A stretch of DNA of 27,229 bases, from IMG/VR virus record IMGVR_UViG_3300046463_000927, positions 1-27,229 of that record. One strand, written 5' to 3'. Numbering within the stretch: position 1 is the stretch's first letter; each line of letters starts with the position of its first letter. The notes beneath the pieces are model-generated. The model did no database searches, had not been told where the DNA came from, and saw only the letters and a program-made list of their open reading frames with translations. Made by a program: the position numbers and the translations under genes. Positions 1 through 23,908 of the stretch are shown here, piece after piece. This DNA comes from a virus.

Positions 1-118
1 CAAGAAGTTGCGCAGTACTGTGCAACTTCTTGCGCACTTGGCTGGAGACCTTGAAATACATGGCCTCCAGCGGAATCGGTGAGCATTTTTACAAAACAAG
101 TGCGCAACTTCTTGCGCA
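1..118. repeat. Cluster of three copies of a 14-15 bp motif in both orientations
   Basis: The motif GCAACTTCTTGCGCA is present exactly at 22-36 and 104-118, and its reverse complement (CAAGAAGTTGCGCA) at 1-14. TGCGCACTTG at 31-40 is also the exact inverse of 97-106, and GCTGGAG at 41-47 pairs with CTCCAGC at 65-71. The block could therefore fold into a large cruciform. It lies upstream of the nuclease operon, and 121-387 contains no convincing gene. The copies may be protein-binding sites or the end of a small mobile element; the sequence does not decide. The left boundary is cut by the window. Confidence 0.6.
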
Positions 119-185
119 GTATGGCGTTAGGCCGTGCCTGGCGAGTATTTCGTTCTACCTTCCTGAATAATGTGATGGGGGCTGG

Positions 186-205
186 CTGCTTTCGGCCAAA
201 AGCAG
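186..205. repeat. Intergenic palindrome (CTGCTTT-CGGCC-AAAAGCAG type)
   Basis: This is a near-perfect palindrome with stem CTGCTTT/AAAGCAG around GGCC. The same building block, in varied form, recurs near 2700, 4000-4090, 8620-8670 and 9000-9085. It resembles short palindromic repeats dispersed between genes in P. fluorescens-group genomes. It lies about 180 bp upstream of the nuclease operon. Confidence 0.6.
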
Positions 206-387
206 TCATTCGAACATGTCCATAAGAATGGAGCTTCAGCTTCAGAAATTGAGCTTGTGACGATAGTGGCAAAAGAGTAGCGTACTAAAGGCTCTTTGCT
301 TCGACCAATCGATTGCGGACGATACAATGTCAGGTAGGTTGAAGGGAAAATTAATTTGCATCGGCTATATTTGAAAAGGAGTTTCAA

Positions 388-1302
388 TTGAGCTTAGTTG
401 ACAGCCTGAAAGCTCTAGATCCAAGATTATTCGAAAATCTTTCATACGACCTTCTAGTTGAATTTGGTATTACTAACTTGGTTTGGCGAACCCCTGGTGC
501 TGACCGAGGCAGAGACTTAGAGGGAGAGAATCCCATTATAGACTTTAGTGGGACAGGATTTACAGAGAAATGGTATATCGAGTGCAAACGATACGAAAGC
601 TCGATAGATTGGCCAACTGTTTTTGGTAAGTTATCCTACGCAATAAGCAATGGTGCGGATTACTTGTTGATGATCACAACTTCAAATCTGTCAACAAACT
701 GCGTAGACGAAGTAAATAATTGGAATTCTTCAAATAAGTTTCCAAAAATAAGATGGTGGCCAGGCTATTACTTGGAAAATATGCTACAGCAGACTCCGTC
801 AATATTAATAAAATACGGTCTAGCTACCGGTCAGGCTATCGTGCCGCCCGCGTTCATTGATTTAGCTCAAGCGGTAGCTAAGGCAACTGCGGCGGCAATG
901 GGAAGAGACTCTTTAGGTGCAGGCACAGGTGAAAATCTTGAGCTAACCTTTGCTGGAACTCTAGCGGAGCTAATGCAAGCTAAAATGCAACAATATGAAC
1001 TTGAAGGAAAGTTAAGTCCTACTCGTTTTATTTCCGAGATCGACGGATTTGAAGGTGATCACTACTGCGAAAAAAGCTACGCGGTGGATAAATACGCTTT
1101 CAGAGCCTTGCTTGCATACATCAGACTGATTAAGAAAAGTAGTAATATTCACGTCAATTCTATCGACGACGATAAAAGCTTTAAATTAGATGTCGATATG
1201 TCGAGCAGACCCGGTAGTGATTTTACATTGATGGATATTGTGGCTTTCTGGGGTGGATTTCAAATAAAGTACCCAGCAGATGGAGTTGTGATATATGAGT
1301 GA
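388..1302 (+). CDS. Mrr-like PD-(D/E)XK restriction endonuclease-type protein
   Basis: This 304-residue protein is probably a DNA-cleaving enzyme. The first ~130 residues carry a Mrr/RecB-type nuclease signature: an acidic helix (FENL, E16), then GADRGRDL with D39 and D43, then YIECKRY with E65 and K67, which together form the D...ExK metal site. A strand follows (DYLLMITTS, 91-99), as in Mrr proteins. The remaining ~170 residues contain no domain I recognise and could be a regulatory or target-sensing part. The start is TTG at 388 because AAAGGAG lies just upstream at good spacing. The gene is AT-rich compared with the prophage. Its last 8 bp overlap a histidine kinase gene, which is followed immediately by a response regulator gene, so one mRNA likely makes all three. 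Nuclease assignment is firm at fold level; the target is unknown. Confidence 0.8.
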   Translation: MSLVDSLKALDPRLFENLSYDLLVEFGITNLVWRTPGADRGRDLEGENPIIDFSGTGFTEKWYIECKRYESSIDWPTVFGKLSYAISNGADYLLMITTSNLSTNCVDEVNNWNSSNKFPKIRWWPGYYLENMLQQTPSILIKYGLATGQAIVPPAFIDLAQAVAKATAAAMGRDSLGAGTGENLELTFAGTLAELMQAKMQQYELEGKLSPTRFISEIDGFEGDHYCEKSYAVDKYAFRALLAYIRLIKKSSNIHVNSIDDDKSFKLDVDMSSRPGSDFTLMDIVAFWGGFQIKYPADGVVIYE

Positions 1303-2053
1303 AAGTATTGAAGAGATAAACGTTCGACAAGATGCTCAACGGATTGATCTCTTGTTTCTTGGAAACTTTGTTCACCAGCTAGTTAACCCGCTGAATGGTG
1401 TTGCAGGCACTCTCGACAACGTTGTAGAGGGAATTTACAAGGGTGCGGAAATCAATCAAAAAATAAACGCTGCTCGGGCGCAGATAGAACAGTGCATTCA
1501 TCTAACAAAGAACTTGGCGTTCTTTTCTGAAATATCTTCTGAGCAAAAAATGCTTAGCGCTCCTAAAAAAGAAGGCATTGTCATTCTTCCTCAATCTATT
1601 ATTGAGGCGCTACAGTTTTACGCAGAACTAGGTGCAAAGAAAGACATGAAAATATCCTTGCTAGACAAGGTTACTCAGTACAAGGTAAAAGGTAGGCCTG
1701 AAGCACTGCGGCAGGTTTTCATGAATTTATTTGATAATGCAGTAAAGTACGGACTTAAGGGTAGTCATGTCACTGTGAGTCCTATGATTCAAAAACGGAG
1801 CGGTGCGTTAAGGGTTGTATTTGAAAATGAGAGCATTGGTTTCGCAGCAAGTGACGCAGAGAATATCTTCCTGCTCGGCTATCGAAGTGCAGAGGCAAAA
1901 TCTTCGATTGCATTGAGCACAGGACTTGGTCTCTATTTGTGCCGCGAGATCATGAGAACTTTTTTTAATGGTGATGTTGTAGCCGAACATAGTAAGCGAC
2001 GTGGAATTTCTACGTTTACTGTGATTTTCCCAAAAGGGTCTTGGTACATCTAA
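1295..2053 (+). CDS. Sensor-less histidine kinase (HisKA-like plus HATPase_c)
   Basis: This 252-residue protein has the core of a histidine kinase and little else. The H-box reads FVHQLVNPLNGVAG with phospho-acceptor H27 and the usual NPL after it. The ATP-binding domain has an N-box (VFMNLFDNAVKYG, N144 and N148), an F-box-like IFLLGY and a G2 box STGLGLYL (208-215). The usual DxGxG of the G1 box is replaced by ENESIG near residue 178, so nucleotide handling may be unusual. No transmembrane segment, PAS, GAF or TPR region is visible, so the protein should be cytoplasmic with its signal coming from a partner. The start ATG lies inside the nuclease stop region (8 bp overlap). The stop overlaps the next start as TAATG. 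The likely partners are the receiver protein downstream and the nuclease upstream. Confidence 0.85.
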   Translation: MSESIEEINVRQDAQRIDLLFLGNFVHQLVNPLNGVAGTLDNVVEGIYKGAEINQKINAARAQIEQCIHLTKNLAFFSEISSEQKMLSAPKKEGIVILPQSIIEALQFYAELGAKKDMKISLLDKVTQYKVKGRPEALRQVFMNLFDNAVKYGLKGSHVTVSPMIQKRSGALRVVFENESIGFAASDAENIFLLGYRSAEAKSSIALSTGLGLYLCREIMRTFFNGDVVAEHSKRRGISTFTVIFPKGSWYI

Positions 2054-2496
2054 TGAAAGCCTATCTTGAAAAAACAATACTTCTCGCAGATGATGAGCCG
2101 ACCAATTTAGATTGGCTTGTCGATTATATTACTTCGTTGGGTTTCAATGTTGAGTTGGCTTTGACCGCTAGCGAGGCTATAGAAAAGTTGAGGAGGGACG
2201 ATTACAGGGCAGTCATAGTTGACCTTAACATTCCTAAAGGCGCCGGTTTCAATTCCACTACAAGCGAAACAACTTTGTACAACCAATACCCAGGTCTCCA
2301 CATAGCAAGATTTGCTAGAAATATCGGAAACCATCACAGAAGAGTGATTATATACTCAGTTTATCAAACTGAAGAGCTCGCAGAGGAAATAGAAAGATTC
2401 TCCTGTGAATACGTTTCTAAACAGAGACCAAGACATATTAAAGAAGTTATATTGTCGGCAACTCGATTTGATCCCAGAGCGAACCCTTCAAGCTAA
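2053..2496 (+). CDS. Single-domain response regulator (receiver only)
   Basis: This 147-residue CheY-like receiver domain has no DNA-binding output domain. It shows the acidic pair D13/D14 (LLADDEP), phospho-acceptor D57 in VIVDLNIP, a Thr/Ser position in VIIYSVY near residue 105, and the conserved Lys in YVSKQR near residue 123. A segment of about 30 residues after D57 (GAGFNSTTSETTLYNQYPG and neighbours) is longer than in CheY and may be a contact loop. The ATG at 2053 shares one base with the kinase stop (TAATG), which indicates translational coupling. Without an output domain it probably acts by binding another protein; the nuclease of the same operon is the obvious candidate, which is an inference. 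A TTG at 2041 in the same frame is a poorer start choice. Confidence 0.85.
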   Translation: MKAYLEKTILLADDEPTNLDWLVDYITSLGFNVELALTASEAIEKLRRDDYRAVIVDLNIPKGAGFNSTTSETTLYNQYPGLHIARFARNIGNHHRRVIIYSVYQTEELAEEIERFSCEYVSKQRPRHIKEVILSATRFDPRANPSS

Positions 2497-2541
2497 GCCC
2501 ATTAAAGGTTTCTTCACGAAAATCAGAGGATTGCGATGGTT

Positions 2542-2568
2542 TGGCGGCGAAGGAAAGATTCGAACTCC
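2542..2568 (-). other. Possible tRNA 3'-end remnant (T-arm and CCA-like)
   Basis: Read on the minus strand, this segment has GGAGTTCGAATC followed by a 7-base acceptor-like strand, G and CCA, which is the layout of a tRNA 3' end. The T-stem pairs poorly (two G-T pairs and one mismatch), and no anticodon arm follows upstream. It is either a decayed attachment-site copy left by an integrative element or chance resemblance. The surrounding 2497-2942 has no solid gene, only this fragment, a repeat near 2690-2740 and a doubtful 44-codon frame. Confidence 0.3.
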
Positions 2569-2680
2569 AAAAAACTATTGCCATCATCAATGTATCCGGG
2601 CTTTATCACTATTACGAGGATCACGCCGTCGCATTGCATCTGGAGAAACGCATTCTCCAGCACCGTGAGTCACGAGTCAC

Positions 2681-2740
2681 TATCCGCTTGTGGCCGATAC
2701 GACCAGAAGCAGTCACTCATGAGTGGCCGCTTTCGACCCC
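2681..2740. repeat. Dispersed intergenic repeat block
   Basis: The block holds a GTGGCCGATACGACCAGAAG segment and GTGGCCGCTTTCGACCCC, with ACTCATGAGT as a small palindrome at the centre. It belongs to the same loose family as the blocks at 186-205, 3987-4092, 8617-8672 and 8996-9090. It lies between the response regulator gene and the DUF4238 gene. Confidence 0.5.
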
Positions 2741-2758
2741 TAAATGCGCTCCACAAAG

Positions 2759-2893
2759 ATGGTAATTGACCGCGCAAGCCATGGATATTCTGCTAGAGCT
2801 CCAAGTAATCTGCATACGGATGATCTTACTAAGCTCGTTAAAGTAAACTCTAGAGCTTCAAAGTCAAAGCCCGGTTACCGTGGCTCGTTTTAA
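2759..2893 (+). CDS. Doubtful 44-residue open frame
   Basis: A frame from ATG 2759 to TAA 2893 would encode MVIDRASHGYSARAPSNLHT and 24 further residues ending KPGYRGSF. The ribosome-binding site is weak and no family is recognised. It could be a small protein, the tail of a decayed gene, or non-coding. It is listed because it fills part of the 446 bp gap between the response regulator and DUF4238 genes. Confidence 0.2.
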   Translation: MVIDRASHGYSARAPSNLHTDDLTKLVKVNSRASKSKPGYRGSF

Positions 2894-2942
2894 TAAAAAA
2901 CTTGGAAAAACCAAACAAACTGATCATGGAGTGCAATAATTC

Positions 2943-3953
2943 ATGAACTCAAGCTCTAAGCCCCCAAAAACTGAGTATGCGAATCAACATTACGTCCCCA
3001 AACTACTCCTAAAGCGATTTTCGTATGAAGACAAAATTAACATCGGATTGATGAGTGCTTCGAGTGGTGAGGTAAGGTCGCCGATTCCGTATAAGCCGCA
3101 GTGCGCCAAGCACTATTTTTATGGCAAGGATCTGGTTATTGAGAAAAAATTGGGGGAGATTGAGGATGAAATTGGAAAAATTATTGATTCAATAAGCTCC
3201 ATTCCCGAACCTCATATAGAGCGATTAAGCCGCGCTCATATACTTTTAACAATATTCTCTGTTTATCAGTATGTTCGGACTGACAGCACCTTGAAATTTG
3301 CGGAAGAAGTGGTTGCAAAAAGCTATTCTGTTATCAAGGAGCATGCAAAGCCTAAACTTATGCTTAAGCTGGCAGAGAGGGCGAATGGGCGACTCTCTGA
3401 ACAAGAGTTGTCTGAGTTCTACGATAGTGTGACGGCCTCCATGACCAACCCACATTCCATCCTGTTTGAAACCGCTAACAGCGTCATGCTTCCTAGCTTA
3501 CAGCTTGAGATGAAAATAATTATAAATGATACTAAAACGCCATTCATCATTAGCGACAATCCTTTGATTTATATGGACGCAGAAAGCCAGGATTGCTTCT
3601 ACAGGATGCTCCTACCACTGACGCAAAAACTATTGCTTGTCTTTTATGATGGATGCAAGTACAAGATCGGACCAAGGAAAGCCAACTTCCACAAATTGAC
3701 GAGTGAGACCGACGCATTCTATCTTAATGTTCTCCAGTACCTAAACTGCCAGAAGAATATTTATTTTGGGCCAGGCACTCCAACAAAACATCTTATTTCT
3801 TTGAATCGCTCATTTAAAAAAATCAGAGCAAAAGAGGCAACGACGCTAACCGAGCTAAATGGTCGAGCTTTTCTAAAAACTAATAGACCTAAAGTCAATC
3901 ATAGGTTCAGCTTTGTAAGAAGGATCGCTTCCTTGAGTGACTTGCAAGACTAA
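2943..3953 (+). CDS. DUF4238-type protein of unknown function
   Basis: This 336-residue protein starts with the signature QHYVPKLLLKRFS (residues ~15-27), which is the hallmark of DUF4238. It keeps the later family features: a helical middle with a tyrosine-rich segment (FSVYQYVRTD), the TPFIISDNPLIYMD strand-loop near residue 200, and LLPLTQKLLLVF. No catalytic motif, signal peptide or membrane segment is visible. The start ATG has GGAG about 11 bases upstream. The gene stands alone: a repeat-bearing gap precedes it and another follows. It is AT-rich like the nuclease operon. DUF4238 genes are widespread and often lie in accessory regions, but no role is established that I can name, so a defence role here is only suggested by position. 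Confidence 0.8.
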   Translation: MNSSSKPPKTEYANQHYVPKLLLKRFSYEDKINIGLMSASSGEVRSPIPYKPQCAKHYFYGKDLVIEKKLGEIEDEIGKIIDSISSIPEPHIERLSRAHILLTIFSVYQYVRTDSTLKFAEEVVAKSYSVIKEHAKPKLMLKLAERANGRLSEQELSEFYDSVTASMTNPHSILFETANSVMLPSLQLEMKIIINDTKTPFIISDNPLIYMDAESQDCFYRMLLPLTQKLLLVFYDGCKYKIGPRKANFHKLTSETDAFYLNVLQYLNCQKNIYFGPGTPTKHLISLNRSFKKIRAKEATTLTELNGRAFLKTNRPKVNHRFSFVRRIASLSDLQD

Positions 3954-3986
3954 ATACTTCCCGCCTTCCTCCGTAGGAGACTATTT

Positions 3987-4092
3987 TGAGCGGCAGCAAT
4001 TGGTCGGTAGCGGTCGCTTGTGAGCGTCCGCTAATGGCCGACAGCGGTCATTCATAAGCGTCTGCTTTCGGCCAAATGAGGTCATCCGGTTC
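3987..4092. repeat. Tandem block of dispersed intergenic palindromes
   Basis: Three related units follow each other: AGCGGTCGCTTGTGAGCGTC, then CGCTAATGGCCGACAGCGGTC, then GTCTGCTTTCGGCCAAATGA. They repeat the GGCC-centred stem pattern of 186-205. The block separates the convergent DUF4238 gene (+) and the Gabija-linked operon (-), where it could also serve as a terminator-like structure. No gene is visible between 3954 and 4235. Confidence 0.55.
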
Positions 4093-4235
4093 GTTAATGC
4101 CAGGGGCTCATTTGTGCTTACCGGCAGCCAGTCAGTTTCGAGTCTGGTGCAGAGTTTGGCCTAGTTAGCCTAGAAAACCTGCACTCTTAACTATCTGTCC
4201 ACCTGCTCTTGGACAGACCAAGCTGCTATCTGCTA

Positions 4236-4793
4236 CTAATCACCATCCATGGCATGCCAGTGGAGCGACGATTCAATTGAGCGCCGGTACTGAGTATCAA
4301 TCTGCCGCGGAGCTAGGCGAATGTATCGTTCGGCTATCTCACGTTGTTCGCCGGTTAGGGTCTCCAGGTACTCCACGACTTGCTCTGCTGCGGGAGTGGT
4401 TTCTGCACCGTTGAATTTGGGGGGTAGACCGGTCCATACCACGTGGACTAAGTCGTGGGCGTTAGCCCACTCGGATAAGTCTGGAATCAGACTTGGAGAA
4501 GGCTCGCCGGCAGACCATCGGCAAACGTGCTTTTCCACATTTTTTATCGGAATCCCTTCACGGCTGCGTAAGGCTTCAACTGCAGAAGCTAGATCAGCAG
4601 TCTCCATCAACGCCCATAGGGAGGGGACCATTGCTGCAGCTTCGACCAGTACGAGAGTAATTCGCCCATCTTTTGACTGCCTGGCGAACTCAACTGGTAT
4701 CAATGGCCCGTCTTCAAACCATTGTCCCTGAACCACGAAACCTTTCGGCTCCCAAATTAGGGAGCCCCATCCGAGACAAGCGACACGAGCCAA
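4236..4793 (-). CDS. Gamma-glutamylcyclotransferase-like (GGCT/ChaC-fold) protein, third gene of the Gabija operon
   Basis: The protein (185 residues from the chosen start) begins ARVACLGWGSLIWEP, the glycine-rich G-x-GSL loop with which GGCT/AIG2-like proteins bind a gamma-glutamyl group. A strand pattern follows (PLIPVEFARQ, RITLVLV) that fits the same barrel. Enzymes of this fold release 5-oxoproline from gamma-glutamyl compounds; the substrate here is unknown. I chose TTG at 4793 because a strong GGAGG lies 5 bases upstream and it puts the GGCT loop close to the N-terminus, as in the family. An upstream ATG at 4835 in the same frame has no ribosome-binding site. The gene follows gajB by about 60 bp on the same strand with no terminator between, so it is probably co-transcribed with Gabija. 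Confidence 0.7.
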   Translation of the reverse strand: MARVACLGWGSLIWEPKGFVVQGQWFEDGPLIPVEFARQSKDGRITLVLVEAAAMVPSLWALMETADLASAVEALRSREGIPIKNVEKHVCRWSAGEPSPSLIPDLSEWANAHDLVHVVWTGLPPKFNGAETTPAAEQVVEYLETLTGEQREIAERYIRLAPRQIDTQYRRSIESSLHWHAMDGD

Positions 4794-4855
4794 TGTGACC
4801 TCCGTTGTGACCTGAACGTTGATTAGCGGAGTCATGTTATCAATTTAGGTGAAGT

Positions 4856-6637
4856 TCACGCCTGCTGGCTCCGTCGATAGAGCTCAGCGACCCAAGGCGA
4901 GTGATTTCCCTTCTCAAAAACCAGACACAGTTCTTTTCTCGGCCGAGTCACACCAACATAAAAAAGACGCCGAGCCTCGCGCATCGCCCGCTCTGACTTT
5001 TTATCGCGCCAACTCGGGAAGTCTTCTGCATTGATACCAAACAGAATAACCGCATCAAATTCGCGGCCTTTGGCGCTGTGGAGGGTACTTAGGGTCACTC
5101 GGCCAGAGCCATTGATCCGCCCAGAGAAGATGCTAAGTGGCATGTCTAGTCCCAGTGCTGGGTCGGTCCGAGCTAGAAGCTCCGAACACACCTCCCACTC
5201 TTGATGGGTGTTTCTGGCAATAGCTCGCCACGGCGCGATCAGCTCGCGACCAAAACGGGCCAGCCAAAGATGGGTAGTCTCGTTACGGTCGATTCCGCTG
5301 CGCAAGAAGGCCATTAATTGGCAAGACATAGCCTGCTCCTCGGCCGCGCTTACTCTTCCGCCATACACAATCGCCAGAGCCTGGCCCAGCAGCCGATGAT
5401 AGGGGGGCGTGGCATCACGCCACCCCCCAGTGACCCACTGGGTGCAAGCTTCGACGAATCGAGCAAGACGGGAGTTTCGCTTCACCAGCGCATTACCGTC
5501 CGTGCGCAGGATGGCGATGTCCTTCTCCTTGAATACATCGGCAACCTTATCGCCGAGCCAGGCTGCGCGGTAAAGAATCCCTATATGTTCAAGCTGAAAT
5601 CCACGAGCAAGCAGTGACGGCAGGACGACCTCAGCGATGTATCGGGCCTGTTTATCGTGGTCGCCCACTACAGGCAAGAAACTCAATTCCCCTTCAGGAG
5701 CCCCGTCCCTACAGCAGTAATCGCGCTCTTCGCCAAGCGCCCCCAAAGAGGCCCTGATGATCTTTGCACCTGAGCGGTAGTTGAAGCGTAGGCGGATTGT
5801 TCTGACGTCGCCGCGTTCGGTGAGACTTTGCAGCAAGCTGGGGTTAGCACCATTGAACCCATAGATCGACTGATCAGCATCACCGACAGCAAATAGCCGA
5901 ATTCCACTTTCAAAGCAAAGCAGCAGTACCAGTTCATGGAGCGCGTAGCCCAGGTCCTGATACTCATCAACAAATAGGACGGGAAATCGGGCCCTCAGGG
6001 CGTCACGAACCCAACGGTGTTCCTTGATCATTCGAAAGGCAATGAGGGGCATGTCATCGAAGTCGATCAGTGCCTTGTGACGCAGCTCCGCCTCATAGGC
6101 CTCGATAAACGTAGCGAGCTCAGGATTCTTCCCCTTCCAGGTGGGTAGAGTGCGGTCAACATCCCGACGTCGCTTTTCCTCGGCGAAACGCCAACGCTCG
6201 AGTGCATTGCCCATATCGCCAAAAACGGATTTATAAGCGGCTTCGACAGCCGCTCGGCACTCGCTACTCGTAGCAACGCGAAAACCGTTCGGGAGCAGCT
6301 GAGCAATACACCGGGCATAAGGTGCAATGACTTGAGTGAGCGCGAAGCTATGGACTGTGCCGATGAAGCTGCGATCGCTGTTGGCAACGCCGAACTTAGC
6401 TAATCGCTCCTCAAGCTCCGTCGCGCACTCGGTGTTGTAGGTAATGCAGGCGACTCCACGCGGGTCGATAACCTCGTCCATCAAAGCACGCGCCATGGCG
6501 GTGGTCAGGGTCTTGGTCTTCCCGCTGCCAGGACCTGCCAAAACCACACAGTGCCCGCGTTCAAGGACTGCATCATCTTGCTCGCTATTGGGTTTGAGCT
6601 CTGCAAGCGCGTGTTCCAACGCGAGCCGATTAGACAC
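4856..6637 (-). CDS. gajB: GajB: UvrD/Rep-like SF1 helicase of a Gabija anti-phage system
   Basis: This 593-residue superfamily 1A helicase has all core motifs: Q-motif (Q20), Walker A AGPGSGKT (34-41), motif Ia CITYNTECATELEERL, motif Ic GTVHSF, motif II VDEYQD (DE at 224-225), motif III VGDADQSIYGFNGA, motif IV LRFNYRSG, motif V LSTLHSAKGREFD and motif VI RRLFYVGVTRPRK. It is longer than the roughly 500 residues I associate with well-studied GajB. The start is GTG at 6637, which overlaps the gajA stop by 8 bp and so suggests coupled translation. In known Gabija systems GajB is an accessory to the GajA nuclease complex and senses DNA ends or ssDNA. The gene pair identifies the system more than either protein alone. 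A housekeeping UvrD/Rep would be longer and would not follow an OLD nuclease. Confidence 0.9.
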   Translation of the reverse strand: MSNRLALEHALAELKPNSEQDDAVLERGHCVVLAGPGSGKTKTLTTAMARALMDEVIDPRGVACITYNTECATELEERLAKFGVANSDRSFIGTVHSFALTQVIAPYARCIAQLLPNGFRVATSSECRAAVEAAYKSVFGDMGNALERWRFAEEKRRRDVDRTLPTWKGKNPELATFIEAYEAELRHKALIDFDDMPLIAFRMIKEHRWVRDALRARFPVLFVDEYQDLGYALHELVLLLCFESGIRLFAVGDADQSIYGFNGANPSLLQSLTERGDVRTIRLRFNYRSGAKIIRASLGALGEERDYCCRDGAPEGELSFLPVVGDHDKQARYIAEVVLPSLLARGFQLEHIGILYRAAWLGDKVADVFKEKDIAILRTDGNALVKRNSRLARFVEACTQWVTGGWRDATPPYHRLLGQALAIVYGGRVSAAEEQAMSCQLMAFLRSGIDRNETTHLWLARFGRELIAPWRAIARNTHQEWEVCSELLARTDPALGLDMPLSIFSGRINGSGRVTLSTLHSAKGREFDAVILFGINAEDFPSWRDKKSERAMREARRLFYVGVTRPRKELCLVFEKGNHSPWVAELYRRSQQA

Positions 6638-8414
6638 GGGACACCACGTGCTTGATGGCCGCAGCGATGTAGTCAGGTGGCGTCAGCCCTGGCAGTTTGA
6701 TCGAAAGCTTTGCACTCAACCGGCCTTTGCCAATATCGGCAACCATCGCAAGTAGCTGGGCGGAATTGACGGGCGTTCCAGAACGCCAAGCTTCAATGCG
6801 CGCCGAGCGAGTAGAACCGAAGCCTTGCTCGTCAAGGATGTCCAGCAGCGCCCCCTGGAGACTGGGGGTGTTTGCCACAGCTACTTCGAAAGTCTGATCG
6901 TTCAGAAATATCCCATGCGTTGCCCAGTTACCGCTAAATTGTGCGAAGTCGGCTTTTTCGCACCATGCACGTCCCTCAGGCGTTAACGGAGTCGCTCCGG
7001 GAGTAACCGTACAATAGGCGTCCCAGACACCTACAGTCCGAGCTTTGCCGAGCGGAGGTTTTGTTCCGTCTAGCGGATCCCAATCAGTGACGACCGCAAA
7101 AGGTAAACCGAGACTACCCGCCAGCTTCACATAAGGTTCGAAATTCACCCCCGCCACATTGCAAACGGTAATGCCAAGATGGTCGAGGTTGTGCCCTAGC
7201 GCATCGGCGAAACCGGGGAGTAAAGCCTCCTCTGCGTCACCTTCGACGAAAATTACGCCTCTCGCGAAGAGCAACTCAGATCGCGTAGCAGTGAGATACC
7301 GTTCGATATCGTCGAGCTCGTTAGATGTTACCGGCAGTGCGGCAAGCGAGTAAGCCTGGGACAAACCAGCAGGCGTTCGCCGCAGAGTAACGATTGAACG
7401 CAATGGTGCGATCGCAGCCAGAGTCGGAGAGTGGCTGGTCACGATCAGAGCCTGCGCGGTATCAGGGGTGTTGAAGAGCTTGTCGAAAACTGCCCGCTGC
7501 AGCTGGGGATGAAGGTGCGCCTCAGGTTCCTCAATGCAAAGCAGCGAGTAGTTCCGCTCATTTTTTTCACGGCGCCAGGCGAACTCGGCCAACTTCAGTG
7601 CGATCAGGGCAACGTTCGCGGAGCCCAAGCTTGCCTCCGCGATGCCACGCTTTCCGTCGTCTATGAACATGGCGATCGAACGAACAAGCCGAAGCGGGTC
7701 GGTCGGCGCGAAGCGCAGCCGTGCATTGAGATCATGCGCGCTGCCGGCCAGATCGAGGATGCCTCTACGTAGCGATTCCTCAAGTGTTTTAACGGATGGG
7801 AAGCTCTCCATCTTCTTCGTCGCCGCCTCAAGGTCAGTAGCGACGCCCTCCAGCTCAGTCCGACTGACTGAAGAAAACGCATCCTCGAGCAAAGGTCGAA
7901 GTGGGGAGTGTCGCCAAGACGCAAGCTGTGCTTCGGCATCGCGCAACGCATCAAGCATGTCTAGCGCGATACGGCGGCGTACGCGATTGGGCACGCTGCG
8001 GGATTCATCACCGCCACCATAGACAACGAACTCACAATCTTCGCTGGACTGTGGTGCACCAGTGATATCAGCTCTCTTGCGATAGACATAGCTAAGCCGC
8101 GCGACCGTTGGGTTGGCTGCTATGCGGAAGTCAGTTAACAAGGCAACCAGCATGTCGTCGCTGTCGAAGTCCGCAAAATCCAGATGCACTTCAATTTGAG
8201 GGTTCGTTGTCAGATCGCAACCGTCCCAAAAGTCTGACAGTTTCAACTGTCGCATCGAGTCAGGAAGGGTGGGATCAAGCACCAACCGAATGGCAAACAG
8301 CAGGTTGCTTTTGCCGACTCGATTCTCGCCTAGCAACACGATGTTGCCGGCGAGTGGAATATCGATTGACACAAAATTTCGGAGGTTGCGAATGCTCAAA
8401 CTTGTTAGGCGCAT
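6630..8414 (-). CDS. gajA: GajA: OLD-family ATPase-TOPRIM nuclease of a Gabija anti-phage system
   Basis: This 594-residue protein has an N-terminal ABC-type ATPase split by an insertion. Visible parts are Walker A GENRVGKSN (K35), a signature-like LGSANVALIAL near 263-273, Walker B LLCIEEPEAHLHP (290s) and an H-loop SHSP (H328). The C-terminal TOPRIM domain shows VIFVEGDAEEALLP with E391 and VVTDWDP with D444 and D446, the metal ligands. This is the class 2 OLD layout (OLD gene beside a UvrD-like helicase), and the length is close to the usual ~580. GajA cuts DNA when phage activity depletes nucleotides, according to published work on the family. The start ATG has GAGGGAG upstream. It is the first gene of a three-gene minus-strand operon with gajB and a GGCT-like gene. 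Confidence 0.92.
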   Translation of the reverse strand: MRLTSLSIRNLRNFVSIDIPLAGNIVLLGENRVGKSNLLFAIRLVLDPTLPDSMRQLKLSDFWDGCDLTTNPQIEVHLDFADFDSDDMLVALLTDFRIAANPTVARLSYVYRKRADITGAPQSSEDCEFVVYGGGDESRSVPNRVRRRIALDMLDALRDAEAQLASWRHSPLRPLLEDAFSSVSRTELEGVATDLEAATKKMESFPSVKTLEESLRRGILDLAGSAHDLNARLRFAPTDPLRLVRSIAMFIDDGKRGIAEASLGSANVALIALKLAEFAWRREKNERNYSLLCIEEPEAHLHPQLQRAVFDKLFNTPDTAQALIVTSHSPTLAAIAPLRSIVTLRRTPAGLSQAYSLAALPVTSNELDDIERYLTATRSELLFARGVIFVEGDAEEALLPGFADALGHNLDHLGITVCNVAGVNFEPYVKLAGSLGLPFAVVTDWDPLDGTKPPLGKARTVGVWDAYCTVTPGATPLTPEGRAWCEKADFAQFSGNWATHGIFLNDQTFEVAVANTPSLQGALLDILDEQGFGSTRSARIEAWRSGTPVNSAQLLAMVADIGKGRLSAKLSIKLPGLTPPDYIAAAIKHVVSRV

Positions 8415-8475
8415 GAAACTCCCTCTTGCACGCGGATCTCGTATTTCCGCTTATACGGTCATCCTGTCGAATTAC

Positions 8476-8619
8476 CTACCGACGCTCGAATAAGGAGATT
8501 CGCGGTACGTAACGGTACTCTTGGCTGCCAATGAATACTCGATAGCCATTGGCCTCTATCGTAATCTCATCAACTGCTGCCCGTCTGCTTGAATCGACTT
8601 GAAATTCGTAGATGCTCAA
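8476..8619 (-). CDS. Small 47-residue protein or gene remnant upstream of gajA
   Basis: A frame from TTG 8619 to TAG 8476 encodes MSIYEFQVDSSRRAAVDEIT and a tail containing EANGYRVFIGSQEYRYVPRI. The amino-acid pattern (alternating strand-like residues, charged, no rare-residue runs) looks coding. The start lies within a palindromic repeat and the ribosome-binding site is weak (AAGTGG). An in-frame stop lies a short way upstream, so the frame cannot extend far. It may be an intact small gene ahead of gajA or the remains of a larger one. Family unknown. Confidence 0.4.
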   Translation of the reverse strand: MSIYEFQVDSSRRAAVDEITIEANGYRVFIGSQEYRYVPRISLFERR

Positions 8620-8672
8620 CGGCCACTTCTGGCCGAAAGCTGACGGCCACGCTTGACCGCCTTATGGCCGAT
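8617..8672. repeat. Dispersed intergenic palindrome block
   Basis: It contains CGGCCACTTCTGGCCGAAAG, GACGGCCACGC and TTATGGCCGATTGCTGCC, GGCC-centred units like those at 186-205 and 3987-4092. It lies between the Gabija operon and the next small gene. Confidence 0.5.
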
Positions 8673-8692
8673 TGCTGCCTGCAAAGGCAATA

Positions 8693-8911
8693 TTAGGACT
8701 GCCGTATCCGCATAATCGCATCTGTGATTGCTTTTGCATTTGTGTCTAAGGTCTTCATTGCCATCACAGCGTTATCTGCAACCACCTCCACGCCAGTGGC
8801 TGAAAGCCAAACGGCGACCTCCTCGATTGCCGCCGCCAGTGCATGCTGGTTGTGCAGAAGCAATGTCAGCGCGTCCGCAGTGGCGATATTGGAAGCCGAG
8901 TTACTTGGCAT
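8693..8911 (-). CDS. Small helical hypothetical protein
   Basis: From the ATG at 8911 this encodes 72 residues (MPSNSASNIATADALTLLLH...), mostly alanine-rich amphipathic helix with no Cys or catalytic motif. It resembles the many short helical proteins encoded singly in Pseudomonas genomes, but I cannot name the family. I preferred 8911 because AGGATGG sits at workable distance. An ATG at 8920 and a TTG at 8941 are in the same frame. Repeat blocks lie on both sides, so it stands as a separate cassette. Confidence 0.55.
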   Translation of the reverse strand: MPSNSASNIATADALTLLLHNQHALAAAIEEVAVWLSATGVEVVADNAVMAMKTLDTNAKAITDAIMRIRQS

Positions 8912-8995
8912 GCTATCCATCCTGTAAATGGGGTTTTGCAAAGCCTAGCTCATGCGGCCGCAGTTGAGTGGCTTAGATTCGCATCATTGGAGCCA

Positions 8996-9090
8996 GCAGC
9001 CGTTTTCGACCCAAAGCGGCCTTTCGTGAAGGCCAGCTAACGGCCAAAAGCAAAAGTTATATTAAGACCTGCTTTTGGCCGATACTGAAT
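8996..9090. repeat. Dispersed intergenic palindrome block
   Basis: Units GTTTTCGACCCAAAGCGGCC, then GTGAAGGCCAGCTAACGGCC, then ACCTGCTTTTGGCCGATACT follow each other, the last being a clear copy of the GGCC-centred element. It sits between the 72-residue gene and the 339-residue gene. No gene is seen in 8942-9189. Confidence 0.55.
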
Positions 9091-9189
9091 AGGGTGGTGG
9101 GTGCCAGCTGGAATCGCTTAACAGCTGCATGCCTCCCCGCTTGGCATTATCTATTACCCAACGCAGGCGATTCAGCGCCTGCGCCCTCG

Positions 9190-10209
9190 CTAAGCGACTT
9201 CTAACAGCCCATTGGTAGCTTTCACATGATTCACGACTGCTTCAGTGATTTGAGGAATACTCCACCCTTCGGCATTAATAATGGTGCTGTCTGGATAATG
9301 GGCTTGTATCTGCAACACATGGTCATGCAGACATACAAACAACACATCATTATTTTTTAGGCGTGCCTTGAGCGCTATCAAATATTCAGGTGTAGCCTCC
9401 GATCCCACCACCATGATACGCGGAGACGCAAAATTCGCCATTGCAGAACGGTCAATTACGGTAACTGAACGATTTGACGTGCGCATTGCTTCCAACCAAA
9501 AACCGTCTATTAACGATTCAATCAAAGTGAATTGGTTCGTGTCGAAGATGATATCCACAACCTTTGGGAACCAGGCAACATATCCGATGGAGTATGGTTT
9601 GAGCTCTTCAGTCGTAAAGCATGCCCGAACCAACTCCTCAGCTAGTTCAGTCAGTTTTTTATCAACATACATCAATCTTGAAACCAGCTCATCGTATTCA
9701 TGCTTTTGTACCGGGTGACTCAGATGCAGTATTTCAATAGGATCAACATGACCGTTACCTCGGCTCGGTTTTAGGTCAAAGCGGGTCGCGACATAGGACC
9801 TGCGGAGCATCTGCAGTTGCTCATCTGAAACCTGACTGAGCGTAATGATCAGGAAACGTCTGCTCTTTCCATGCACCTCGCCACGACCAATGGCCGCAGC
9901 CAGGCGCCCATAGTATTTGGCCTTCTCGTTTTCCATATCTGCCATGCAACCTGACAGCAAAGCGGTGTAATCATCCGCTGTCAGGTGCTCCGTGACCTCT
10001 GGAGTAACCTCCCCAGCAAAGACGCTTTGGATGAATTCCTGATAACGTTTTTCAGACCGACGCTCCATCTGCGCTGCCGCCTGGTTACTAAGCAGCTGCA
10101 ACCCTTCATAGCCCGCTGTCAGCAAACCTCCTCCGGGGAGCAATCCAATTCCTGCCTTGGCTGCGATGGAGATCAGCTCAGTGAGGGGGTGTTCCGCGTC
10201 CTTCGTCAT
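9190..10209 (-). CDS. Unrecognised 339-residue protein with hydrophobic Gly-rich N-terminus
   Basis: I do not recognise the family. Residues ~10-35 (ISIAAKAGIGLLPGGGLLTA) form a glycine-rich hydrophobic stretch that could touch or cross the membrane. Next comes a charged helical region (ERRSEKRYQEFIQSVF) and a helix-rich part with a C-x-DMENEK-KYYGRLAAAIGRG pattern. The C-terminal ~70 residues look alpha/beta, with strands RIMVVGS, DVLFVCL and TIINAEG. GGGAGAAG precedes the ATG, so the start is sound. It is a single gene between a repeat block and the tRNA-Ser/prophage junction, close to Gabija. A membrane-linked defence effector is possible, but nothing catalytic is visible. Confidence 0.7.
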   Translation of the reverse strand: MTKDAEHPLTELISIAAKAGIGLLPGGGLLTAGYEGLQLLSNQAAAQMERRSEKRYQEFIQSVFAGEVTPEVTEHLTADDYTALLSGCMADMENEKAKYYGRLAAAIGRGEVHGKSRRFLIITLSQVSDEQLQMLRRSYVATRFDLKPSRGNGHVDPIEILHLSHPVQKHEYDELVSRLMYVDKKLTELAEELVRACFTTEELKPYSIGYVAWFPKVVDIIFDTNQFTLIESLIDGFWLEAMRTSNRSVTVIDRSAMANFASPRIMVVGSEATPEYLIALKARLKNNDVLFVCLHDHVLQIQAHYPDSTIINAEGWSIPQITEAVVNHVKATNGLLEVA

Positions 10210-10535
10210 TCCACTTCTCCCATTGTATGGCTAGGCATTAACCATCGCAGAGCTTAGGCCGGCTGTGCGCGGTAAGCCATTAGACGTAGAGCTGTTCTCG
10301 GCTGCGGTGCTGAAGGGGTCGCATGCAACACGGTTCCGAAAATCAAGGCGAGCAAAATTCATTCAAGCTGAAATAGCTGAACCCTGGCAGCCCGCACGCG
10401 AAACGTATCAGGCACACATTCAGGTGCGTCGAGGTCGAAACAGTGATGTCGGAAGGGAAGGGTTGCGGAAATGGCCGAAAAGATGCGGAAACGATCCATA
10501 GAGAGAGGAGCCAATTTCCTGAATGCCAGAAACGA
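10210..10535. other. Gap between the 339-residue gene and the tRNA-Ser remnant
   Basis: No convincing gene is seen. A 78-codon plus-strand frame (10265-10501) contains RFRKSRRAKFIQAEIAEPWQ, which looks somewhat protein-like, but it lacks a clear ribosome-binding site and conserved motifs. It could be a remnant of an earlier gene at this insertion-prone site. The right end carries the tRNA terminator. Confidence 0.4.
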
Positions 10536-10561
10536 CAAAGCCCTGGATAATCAGGGCTTTG
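10536..10561 (-). terminator. Terminator hairpin downstream of tRNA-Ser
   Basis: The palindrome CAAAGCCCTG-gataat-CAGGGCTTTG lies about 14 bp beyond the CCA end of the tRNA remnant on the minus strand, where the tRNA gene's intrinsic terminator is expected. The T-run is short. Confidence 0.65.
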
Positions 10562-10574
10562 TCGGTACAGAATA

Positions 10575-10633
10575 TGGCGGAGGCGATGGGATTCGAACTC
10601 ATGGACCTGTTACAGTCGACGGTTTTCAAGACC
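10575..10633 (-). tRNA. tRNA-Ser(UGA) 3' portion; left attachment site of the prophage
   Basis: On the minus strand this reads from the anticodon arm GGTCTTGAAAACC (anticodon TGA) through the variable arm, the T-loop GAGTTCGAATCCC and the acceptor strand to CCGCCA. The 5' half (acceptor 5' strand and D-arm) is missing. Upstream the sequence changes abruptly to non-tRNA DNA (GTATATC...). This is what a phage that recombines inside a tRNA gene leaves at one end. The full tRNA-Ser, rebuilt with a phage-borne 3' part, should lie at the right end of the prophage beyond this window. The identity segment is about 59 bp at most. By itself this copy cannot make a tRNA. Confidence 0.85.
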
Positions 10634-10758
10634 GATATACAAAGCCAATAAAACCGGGGCCTGTAGCCGTTTTTCGTTACGACACGTTTATTTTTTGACA
10701 CCTCTACAGCCCGCGTTCTACAAGGGGCGGATTTTGAGTTTTGTAACGGTTTTTGGGG

Positions 10759-11808
10759 CTATTTTGATGGCTTGGCAATGGCGCCAATTCGTCGATAAAC
10801 GCGCTCGGTAATGTCTCCTTTGGTGTGCCCCAAGAGTAGGCTCGCATCGCCGACGTCGAGGATTTCCGAAGCCGCTTTCGGCCTGATGTCTCTGAACTGG
10901 AAGCCTCCGATTTTCTCAGCCAGCTGAACATCGCCTTTTTCTTCAGCTTCTTTCTTGGCCCTTTCTCTGGCGTCGTCCCATCGATCGCGAAGCATCTTCG
11001 CGGTCATTCGCTTGCCGCGTGCGCTCACGATCAAATAGCTGCAAATGTGCTGAGCATTACGCTCGGCCATTTTCCCGATCAACAGGCCCAAACTGTTTGG
11101 CTCATCGCCGTCAGTGATCTGGATACGCAGCTTTTTGTGTGTCTTGTTCTGCTGCACACCCAAATAATTTCCCTCGACATCGTCCTTCCTCATGACCAGG
11201 ACATCTGCCGGTCTTTGCCCGGTCAGATAGGCCAAGTCCATCGCGTCCTTCAGCTCTTGAGCTGCCTTCATGTAAACAGCATCCCAAACCACATCATTTG
11301 CGTAATAGTCCCTCGGTGTTTCCTTGTTTTTTCGCACGCCCTGGCAGGGATTTTCTTTGGTCGTCAGTCCCCATTCTCGAGCAATGTTGAAAACGTGGGA
11401 GAGGGTGGCAATCTCGCGATTCGCGCGAACCTTGGCGGTCCGCGCGTCGCGGTACCCTGCGATAGTTGCTGGGGTGATTGAGTCGATGGGAGCGCTGTCG
11501 AACATGGGCCGAAGCTGCTTGATCTCCGCCAAATTGTCCTTCTGCGTCCGAGACGCTTTCTTCGATACGATGTCGCGGATATATCGGTCGAAGATGCCTT
11601 TCATGGTGCGCAGATCAAGCGGCTTTTCCTTCGCCTCCAGCTCCGCCCATTTGACCCGGGCCAAGTCCAGATCCTTGCCCAGCGGGATCGCCTTGCCTGT
11701 CATATCCAGATAGTAATAGGCGATCCAAACCTTTCCGCTTTTTCGTGTTCGTGTCCACTGGTACATCCGAGGCGGCAAGCTGCGTGTTTCGGCCTTGCGG
11801 GGGCGCAT
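10759..11808 (-). CDS. int: Phage tyrosine-recombinase integrase
   Basis: This 349-residue site-specific recombinase has a basic N-terminal arm-binding part, a SAM-like core-binding domain (about 65-165, FDRYIRDIVSKKASRTQKDN) and a C-terminal catalytic domain. Catalytic residues are R199 (TGQRPADV), K222, R309 in FRDIRPKAAS, H328 in LLGHTKG and Y338 in ERVYRRIG. The usual first H of the HxxR box is R306, as in many phage integrases. The gene ends about 125 bp from the tRNA-Ser remnant, the normal place for an integrase whose target is that tRNA. The small DUF4224-like gene upstream ends one base before this start, so the two are probably co-transcribed. Confidence 0.95.
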   Translation of the reverse strand: MRPRKAETRSLPPRMYQWTRTRKSGKVWIAYYYLDMTGKAIPLGKDLDLARVKWAELEAKEKPLDLRTMKGIFDRYIRDIVSKKASRTQKDNLAEIKQLRPMFDSAPIDSITPATIAGYRDARTAKVRANREIATLSHVFNIAREWGLTTKENPCQGVRKNKETPRDYYANDVVWDAVYMKAAQELKDAMDLAYLTGQRPADVLVMRKDDVEGNYLGVQQNKTHKKLRIQITDGDEPNSLGLLIGKMAERNAQHICSYLIVSARGKRMTAKMLRDRWDDARERAKKEAEEKGDVQLAEKIGGFQFRDIRPKAASEILDVGDASLLLGHTKGDITERVYRRIGAIAKPSK

Positions 11809-22861: not shown

Positions 22862-23056
22862 GACGACCTCCAGTGTTTGGTTGATCCAACAAAACTCGAA
22901 TGCACTCATCCGATCCGCTGGTTGCCGTTGGGCGCAGGGGAGAGTACTGACGGATAAAGGCGGTTATAAATGCAAGCAGCACAATTGATGGGGGATGCTA
23001 AGAGTCGAGTGGTATGCCACTATCAGGCCATTATCGTGGGCTGAAGGAATAGATTG

Positions 23057-23908
23057 ATGACTGAGCGTAAAGAACTTGTTGGTGCAATCGAGCAACAAAA
23101 AGATTTAACCTGCGGGCTGATAATGCCAATTTCCACCATTGATGGGTGTGGTCCAGAACACTGGCTTGAGGTAAAAGCCATTATTTCCGAGGCGATTTTA
23201 TCAATCTCTGATTACAAATTTAAAGTTAGTTTGGTTAGCGATCAAGACGATGTTGGGGTTATCCAGAAGCGCATTGTTCAAAATGTCTATAACTCTGATA
23301 TTGTTGTCTGTGATGTTAGCTGTAAGAATCCGAATGTCATGTTTGAGTTGGGTATGCGTCTCGCTTTTGATAAGCCTATAGTATTAATAAAGGATGATAA
23401 AACCGACTATTCTTTTGATACTGGTGTTATAGAGCATGTCAATTATCCTAGGGATTTAAGGTTCTCAAAAATAAACACTTTTAAAACTTTACTGGCCGAA
23501 AAGGTTGCGTCTACCTACAAGGTATATACAAAAAACAACGAGAATTCATTTTTAAGCAGTTTTGGTACGTTTAAAGTTGCTGCCATTAAGCAAACAGAAG
23601 GTACTCCAGATCAGCTTATGATGGATATGTTGCAAGAGATATCTAAGGAAATTACGAGCCTGAGAAAATCAAACTCGAGTTTGGTTAAACGCAGTCGCGG
23701 CTCAATGAGCGAAAGGACTCTATTATTGACCGAAGCGGTAATGGCGTATTTGGCGCAGAATCCGAAGGTAAAACTTCACGAGGTGATTGGGCGCGGAGAT
23801 TTCTATGACGCAATAGAGTCCAAGATTTCTAATCTCCAAATTTTCAATTCTCGTCGAGAGTTTGAATCTGCGGTTGATGATTTTGTTATGACCACTGATT
23901 TGGGGTAG
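23057..23908 (+). CDS. Nucleoside-deoxyribosyltransferase/TIR-like protein (moron)
   Basis: This 283-residue, AT-rich gene is opposite to the phage operon. It begins with LTCGLIMPIS and has FKVSLVSD, IVQNVYNSDIVVCDVS and NPNVMFELGMRLAFDKPIVL (E97). The SDIV-x-CD, NPNV-x-FELG pattern marks a Rossmann-like fold shared by nucleoside 2-deoxyribosyltransferases and TIR-related domains that cut N-glycosidic bonds. The conserved Glu is in place. The last ~130 residues are helical and may oligomerise or sense. ATG 23057 has AAGGAA 7 bases before it. A role as prophage-encoded defence effector is an inference. Confidence 0.65.
   Translation: MTERKELVGAIEQQKDLTCGLIMPISTIDGCGPEHWLEVKAIISEAILSISDYKFKVSLVSDQDDVGVIQKRIVQNVYNSDIVVCDVSCKNPNVMFELGMRLAFDKPIVLIKDDKTDYSFDTGVIEHVNYPRDLRFSKINTFKTLLAEKVASTYKVYTKNNENSFLSSFGTFKVAAIKQTEGTPDQLMMDMLQEISKEITSLRKSNSSLVKRSRGSMSERTLLLTEAVMAYLAQNPKVKLHEVIGRGDFYDAIESKISNLQIFNSRREFESAVDDFVMTTDLG

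Follow-up and report, generated by a model that had tools for sequence, protein, structure and literature searches.

The window, by which we mean the whole stretch of 27,229 nucleotides analyzed here, carries three consecutive plus-strand genes at positions 388–2496. They encode, in this order, an Mrr-type PD-(D/E)XK nuclease, a sensor-less histidine kinase and a lone receiver. The nuclease (388–1302, + strand) is 304 amino acids long, with a C-terminal domain at about residues 150–304 that is specific to its family, and its TTG start is preceded by a Shine–Dalgarno-like AGGAG (370–390, + strand). The kinase (1295–2053, + strand) is a soluble protein of 252 amino acids consisting of DHp and CA domains; it has the motif HQxxNPLNG and is missing the D-box Asp. 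The receiver (2053–2496, + strand) has 147 amino acids, with the acidic pair D13/D14, the phospho-site D57, S102, K123 and a long beta3–alpha3 loop. The nuclease and kinase frames overlap by 8 nt, and the kinase and receiver frames meet in a TAATG with a 1-nt overlap, all of which is as the original prediction described it.

The surroundings of the triplet contain a recognized defence system. About 2.4 kb downstream, and outside the triplet, there is a complete Gabija pair on the minus strand, GajB at 4856–6637 and GajA at 6630–8414, both near full-length PADLOC matches (5e-238 and 4.5e-235, respectively). Between Gabija and the triplet, a DUF4238 protein is encoded (2943–3953; Pfam 2e-31). 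Window 1–220 has short repeats (CTGCTTTCGGCCAAAAGCAGTCATTCG-like), both inverted and dispersed, with copies at 4028–4088 and 9000–9060, and they flank and separate the defence genes. A 3' fragment of tRNA-Ser(UGA) at 10575–10640 lies beside an integrase gene (10759–11808) and forms an att junction. The position of this fragment next to the integrase indicates that window 1–10574 is on the outer side of the prophage junction, either host DNA or a tandem island, and the idea that the triplet is internal to its prophage was dropped. A second remnant resembling a tRNA 3' end is found at 2542–2567, just past the triplet; the two remnants together suggest stacked integrations. Inside the prophage, the frame at 23054–23908 encodes a Nuc_deoxyrib_tr-like protein (Pfam 1e-4, below the cut-off), possibly a nucleotide-related defence.

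This trio of genes recurs, with order and strand unchanged, at 15 other loci, making 16 with the window, in alpha-, beta- and gammaproteobacteria, on one plasmid and in four prophages. A search with the nuclease alone, in which a five-sequence profile was run over 84,980 GTDB species genomes, returned 16 loci, where all three protein profiles were then run. The kinase and then the receiver are encoded directly downstream in all eight of the full-length nuclease relatives, which are from Pseudoduganella, Hyphomicrobium, Bradyrhizobium, an alphaproteobacterial MAG, Nevskia, Rubrivivax, Sphingopyxis and a gammaproteobacterial MAG. The kinase and receiver are beside none of the eight distant relatives whose similarity is limited to the Mrr core (Mucilaginibacter, Clostridium, an actinobacterium, a cyanobacterium and others). 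Further triplets come from a Diaphorobacter plasmid, from four IMG/VR phages and from two more genomes reached through the kinase. In that reverse search, four draws of 369–399 genomes (about 1,540 further genomes) were used, and the best few candidates per genome were scored; kinases of the family (E ≤ 1e-30) were found only with the nuclease, and both new matches carry it. The family is rare, at roughly 2 in 1,540 genomes beyond the seeds, an approximate figure given that the draws may overlap. Among 72,556 plasmids, the Sphingopyxis kinase as query (E ≤ 1e-20) found only the Diaphorobacter triplet, again with the kinase beside the nuclease. Similar DNA was not found in E. coli genomes, nor the nuclease in INPHARED phages.

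The gene junctions of the 16 triplets range from −20 to +16 nt, so that the genes are overlapping or near-contiguous throughout. Mean identities are 33% for the nuclease, 43% for the kinase and 36% for the receiver, and the pairwise distances of the three proteins co-vary (Mantel r 0.81, 0.80 and 0.79; p = 0.0002), with r of 0.72, 0.59 and 0.66 when one near-duplicate is left out. This co-variation shows a shared history of the three genes as read from their sequences, and alone it says nothing of physical contact. The original prediction had allowed that the link would be accidental if the triplet existed only here or if such nucleases were rarely next to a kinase/regulator pair. Neither turned out to be the case, given the 15 other loci and the 8/8 nuclease relatives. 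It is true that each component family is common, which would favour an accidental meeting of a lone Mrr gene with a two-component pair. An accident of this kind is hardly credible at 16 loci with reciprocal exclusivity and co-variation, and the arrangement downstream of every full-length nuclease relative led us to reject chance neighbourhood. A real link between nuclease, kinase and receiver is thus strongly supported. At the level of sequence, the three genes are shown to be one conserved, co-evolving unit in which the nuclease and the receiver have kept their catalytic residues and the kinase its phospho-His. The order is unchanged in bacteria, in prophages and on a plasmid, so it is very probable that the three make up a single machine.

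The nuclease matches Mrr_cat in Pfam (E = 6.2e-9), as do 12/12 of the family nucleases scanned, and none of those 12 matches Response_reg or PNP. It carries the D...(E/D)xK site by which an Mrr or PD-(D/E)XK nuclease is recognized: D43 and K67 are invariant in 16/16 members, and E65 is E in 15/16 and D in one. The residues named in the original prediction (these three, H27 of the kinase and D57 of the receiver) are correct, and E65 is the only one of them that varies. D39, C66 and W33-R34-P36 are further invariants. The member in which ExK has become DxK (WYVDCK) is present as two protein-identical triplet copies in one genome (locus L038, 7002–9077, and locus L039, 8567–10642), beside resolvase and metal-efflux-like genes. 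A TnsA/TnsB-like identity considered for the ORFs beside L039 was not confirmed by Pfam.

The AlphaFold model of the nuclease (pLDDT 83, pTM 0.54) has an AspBHI/MspJI-like core according to an N-terminal Foldseek match, and no SRA-like recognition domain is seen. The C-terminal domain has no match in Pfam, in a PDB sequence search or among the plasmids. In the model, it consists of two long helices followed by alpha-beta-beta-alpha-beta-beta, an arrangement reminiscent of a DHp hairpin plus a lid-less CA fold; the likeness is only suggestive. Weak Foldseek matches to the nuclease model include kinases (9a5d, 4kp4) and the hybrid regulator LvrB (8vc9). Homology of the domain to the kinase was not sustained: profile comparison of the domain with kinase or receiver by hhalign found nothing (E = 0.22 over 20 columns), and the PDB sequence search gave no support. 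It is a rather unlikely elaboration that the system is a defence in which a degenerate-site, sensor-less phospho-switch gates the nuclease and the C-terminal domain is a remnant kinase-like docking platform of DHp/CA topology for the lone receiver, so that effector and kinase would be structural kin sharing one receiver.

The kinase matches HATPase_c (E = 6e-15) and, below the 26.9 cut-off, HisKA (E = 1e-4, 22.4 bits). Its AlphaFold model (pLDDT 81, pTM 0.74) is a plain DHp–CA protein whose best PDB structure matches are WalK, HK853 and HprS, and neither Pfam nor the model has a sensor or transmembrane domain, which bears out its description as sensor-less. H27, N31, N144, D147, N148, K151, Y152, G210 and G212 are invariant in 16/16 members. 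The phospho-His and the N and G2 boxes of a two-component kinase are present, and the acid next to the phospho-His and the D-box (DxGxG) Asp are absent from 16/16: Gln28 gives H-Q in place of the usual H-E/D, and position 178 is N, G or S, as is also seen in the PDB alignments. These two departures, which the original prediction does not mention, raise doubt about ordinary autokinase activity. The second we take as a caution and not as proof of inactivity, since HPK10 kinases, AgrC among them, work without a D-box. The two might also be taken to mean that the main role of the kinase-like protein is that of a phosphatase or a platform for phosphotransfer; it would hold the nuclease off until phage takeover upsets the balance, and acetyl phosphate or a host kinase would charge the receiver. 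The invariant Asn at +4 of the phospho-His would suit such a role, as this residue is used in the phosphatase chemistry of HisKA proteins. We consider it improbable, since the strong conservation of an intact N-box and G2 box argues for ATP binding, and AgrC-type kinases work without a D-box.

The receiver matches Response_reg (E = 2.3e-10). D13, D14, D57 and K123 are invariant in the 16 members and position 102 is S/T, which completes the DD/D/S-T/K set of a two-component receiver. As originally predicted, the receiver in the window has no output domain. Four homologues have Lys/Pro-rich basic C-terminal tails (L009, 7662–8246; L010, 7633–8241; L013, 1910–2539; L040, 6777–7301), which perhaps serve DNA contact.

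The places where the triplet is carried bear on its purpose. In four phages, it adjoins a tail assembly gene, an endolysin, a Dam methylase or terminase genes, and these are typical cargo sites. Such hotspots in prophages are known to harbour anti-phage genes (PMC9122126). Among the neighbours of eight non-prophage loci, there is no PADLOC match to a defence gene at E ≤ 1e-10, so that enrichment of the triplet in defence islands is not evident from them. A defence role is plausible from the prophage cargo positions, the nearby Gabija and the mobility, but the non-prophage loci lie outside recognized defence islands. The triplet is carried in mobile contexts, prophages and a plasmid among them, and eight loci have no defence genes around them, which could also describe a cargo that is selfish or regulatory, such as one that stabilizes its carrier element or acts in prophage induction. 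Such a non-defensive role seems to us doubtful, in that single chromosomal copies are found in unrelated contexts, the nuclease has no antitoxin-like partner, and Gabija stands beside the triplet in the window.

A kinase that lacks a sensor and a receiver that lacks an output domain would have to work through contact with other proteins. The contact partner would be the third protein of the triplet or else host proteins, and the nuclease, with a C-terminal domain confined to its family, is their only constant partner. The sequences gave no sign of contact between nuclease and receiver, which counts against this view. We infer defence and phosphotransfer from these sequences, and propose that an infection cue would alter the phosphorylation state of kinase and receiver, upon which the receiver would license or release the nuclease, and DNA would be cut. 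No conserved methyltransferase gene is found beside the triplet, and because there is no cognate methyltransferase, the nuclease would need a regulated off state. With the nuclease as the sole constant partner and no conserved methyltransferase to protect self DNA, we prefer the reading that receiver phosphorylation gates the nuclease.

The sequences themselves are compatible with either direction, a phosphorelay that controls the nuclease or a nuclease that feeds the relay. In the second case, the Mrr-type protein would sense modified, foreign or broken DNA by binding or nicking it, and the kinase and receiver would alarm a host partner outside the operon. This would supply the kinase with the sensor that it lacks; the nuclease gene always leads and in most cases overlaps or directly adjoins that of the kinase, and the protein has modification-dependent enzymes, AspBHI and MspJI, as its neighbours in fold. 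Nevertheless, the nuclease has conserved catalytic residues, and a pure sensor could do without these; no SRA-like recognition domain is seen, and a shared host target would be required in species as distant as Hyphomicrobium and Diaphorobacter. We therefore hold the reverse flow to be unlikely, if worth keeping in mind. Somewhat on the favourable side of even, we judge the triplet to be a mobile, self-contained module whose Mrr-type nuclease is under the control of a cytoplasmic two-component phospho-switch acting as its gate, most likely for defence against phages or mobile elements.

The nearest described system is Detocs, a defensive two-component system made of the kinase DtcA, the phosphate buffer DtcB and the response regulator-effector DtcC (PMC11728103, PMC11249213). 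The two are alike in having three genes and in linking the chemistry of a histidine kinase and a receiver to an effector that acts at the level of the cell. DtcA carries a TPR sensor region, whereas the kinase of the triplet is 252 amino acids of HisKA/HATPase only. Detocs has a separate buffer receiver in DtcB; the triplet has one lone receiver, the sequence of which would fit buffering as well as activating. The effector DtcC contains a receiver, classically with a PNP domain (PMC11728103), whereas the effector of the triplet is an Mrr nuclease that has no receiver domain and no PNP. The original prediction that the layout differs from Detocs therefore holds. The triplet has neither a TPR kinase nor an effector with a receiver fused to it, and by the descriptions of that system it is not Detocs, although the outline of working is alike. 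In DefenseFinder, Detocs also has variants whose effector is a REase.

Other systems share single parts. The modification-dependent type IV restriction enzymes Mrr, MspJI and AspBHI have the Mrr_cat domain and the D...ExK site in common with the triplet nuclease, which differs in having no visible SRA-like domain, in its unique C-terminal domain and in always being coupled to a kinase and receiver. PADLOC candidates show partial, domain-level similarity (best E 1e-15 to 1e-5): PDC-M58A to the nuclease, PDC-M43B to the kinase, and PDC-M60B/C and SduA to the receiver. The candidate system is a different one for each component, and none was seen to combine all three. In BREX loci, a Schlafen RNase is fused to a minimal histidine kinase (PMC12839542). 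This too joins a nuclease effector with a minimal histidine kinase in defence, but in one fused protein, with an RNase instead of a DNase and no receiver described. No model in Pfam, PADLOC or NCBIfam fits the triplet, and a nuclease–kinase–receiver defence operon was not found in the literature searched.

The triplet is thus most likely an undescribed anti-phage system with phosphorylation predicted to control DNA cutting, and, with its function predicted, it would extend the idea of two-component defence as a variant. Two-component signalling is among the commonest signalling chemistries of bacteria and is hardly known in the direct control of immune nucleases. If our reading is true, this compact mobile unit would show how a restriction-type nuclease can stay safe without a methyltransferase.
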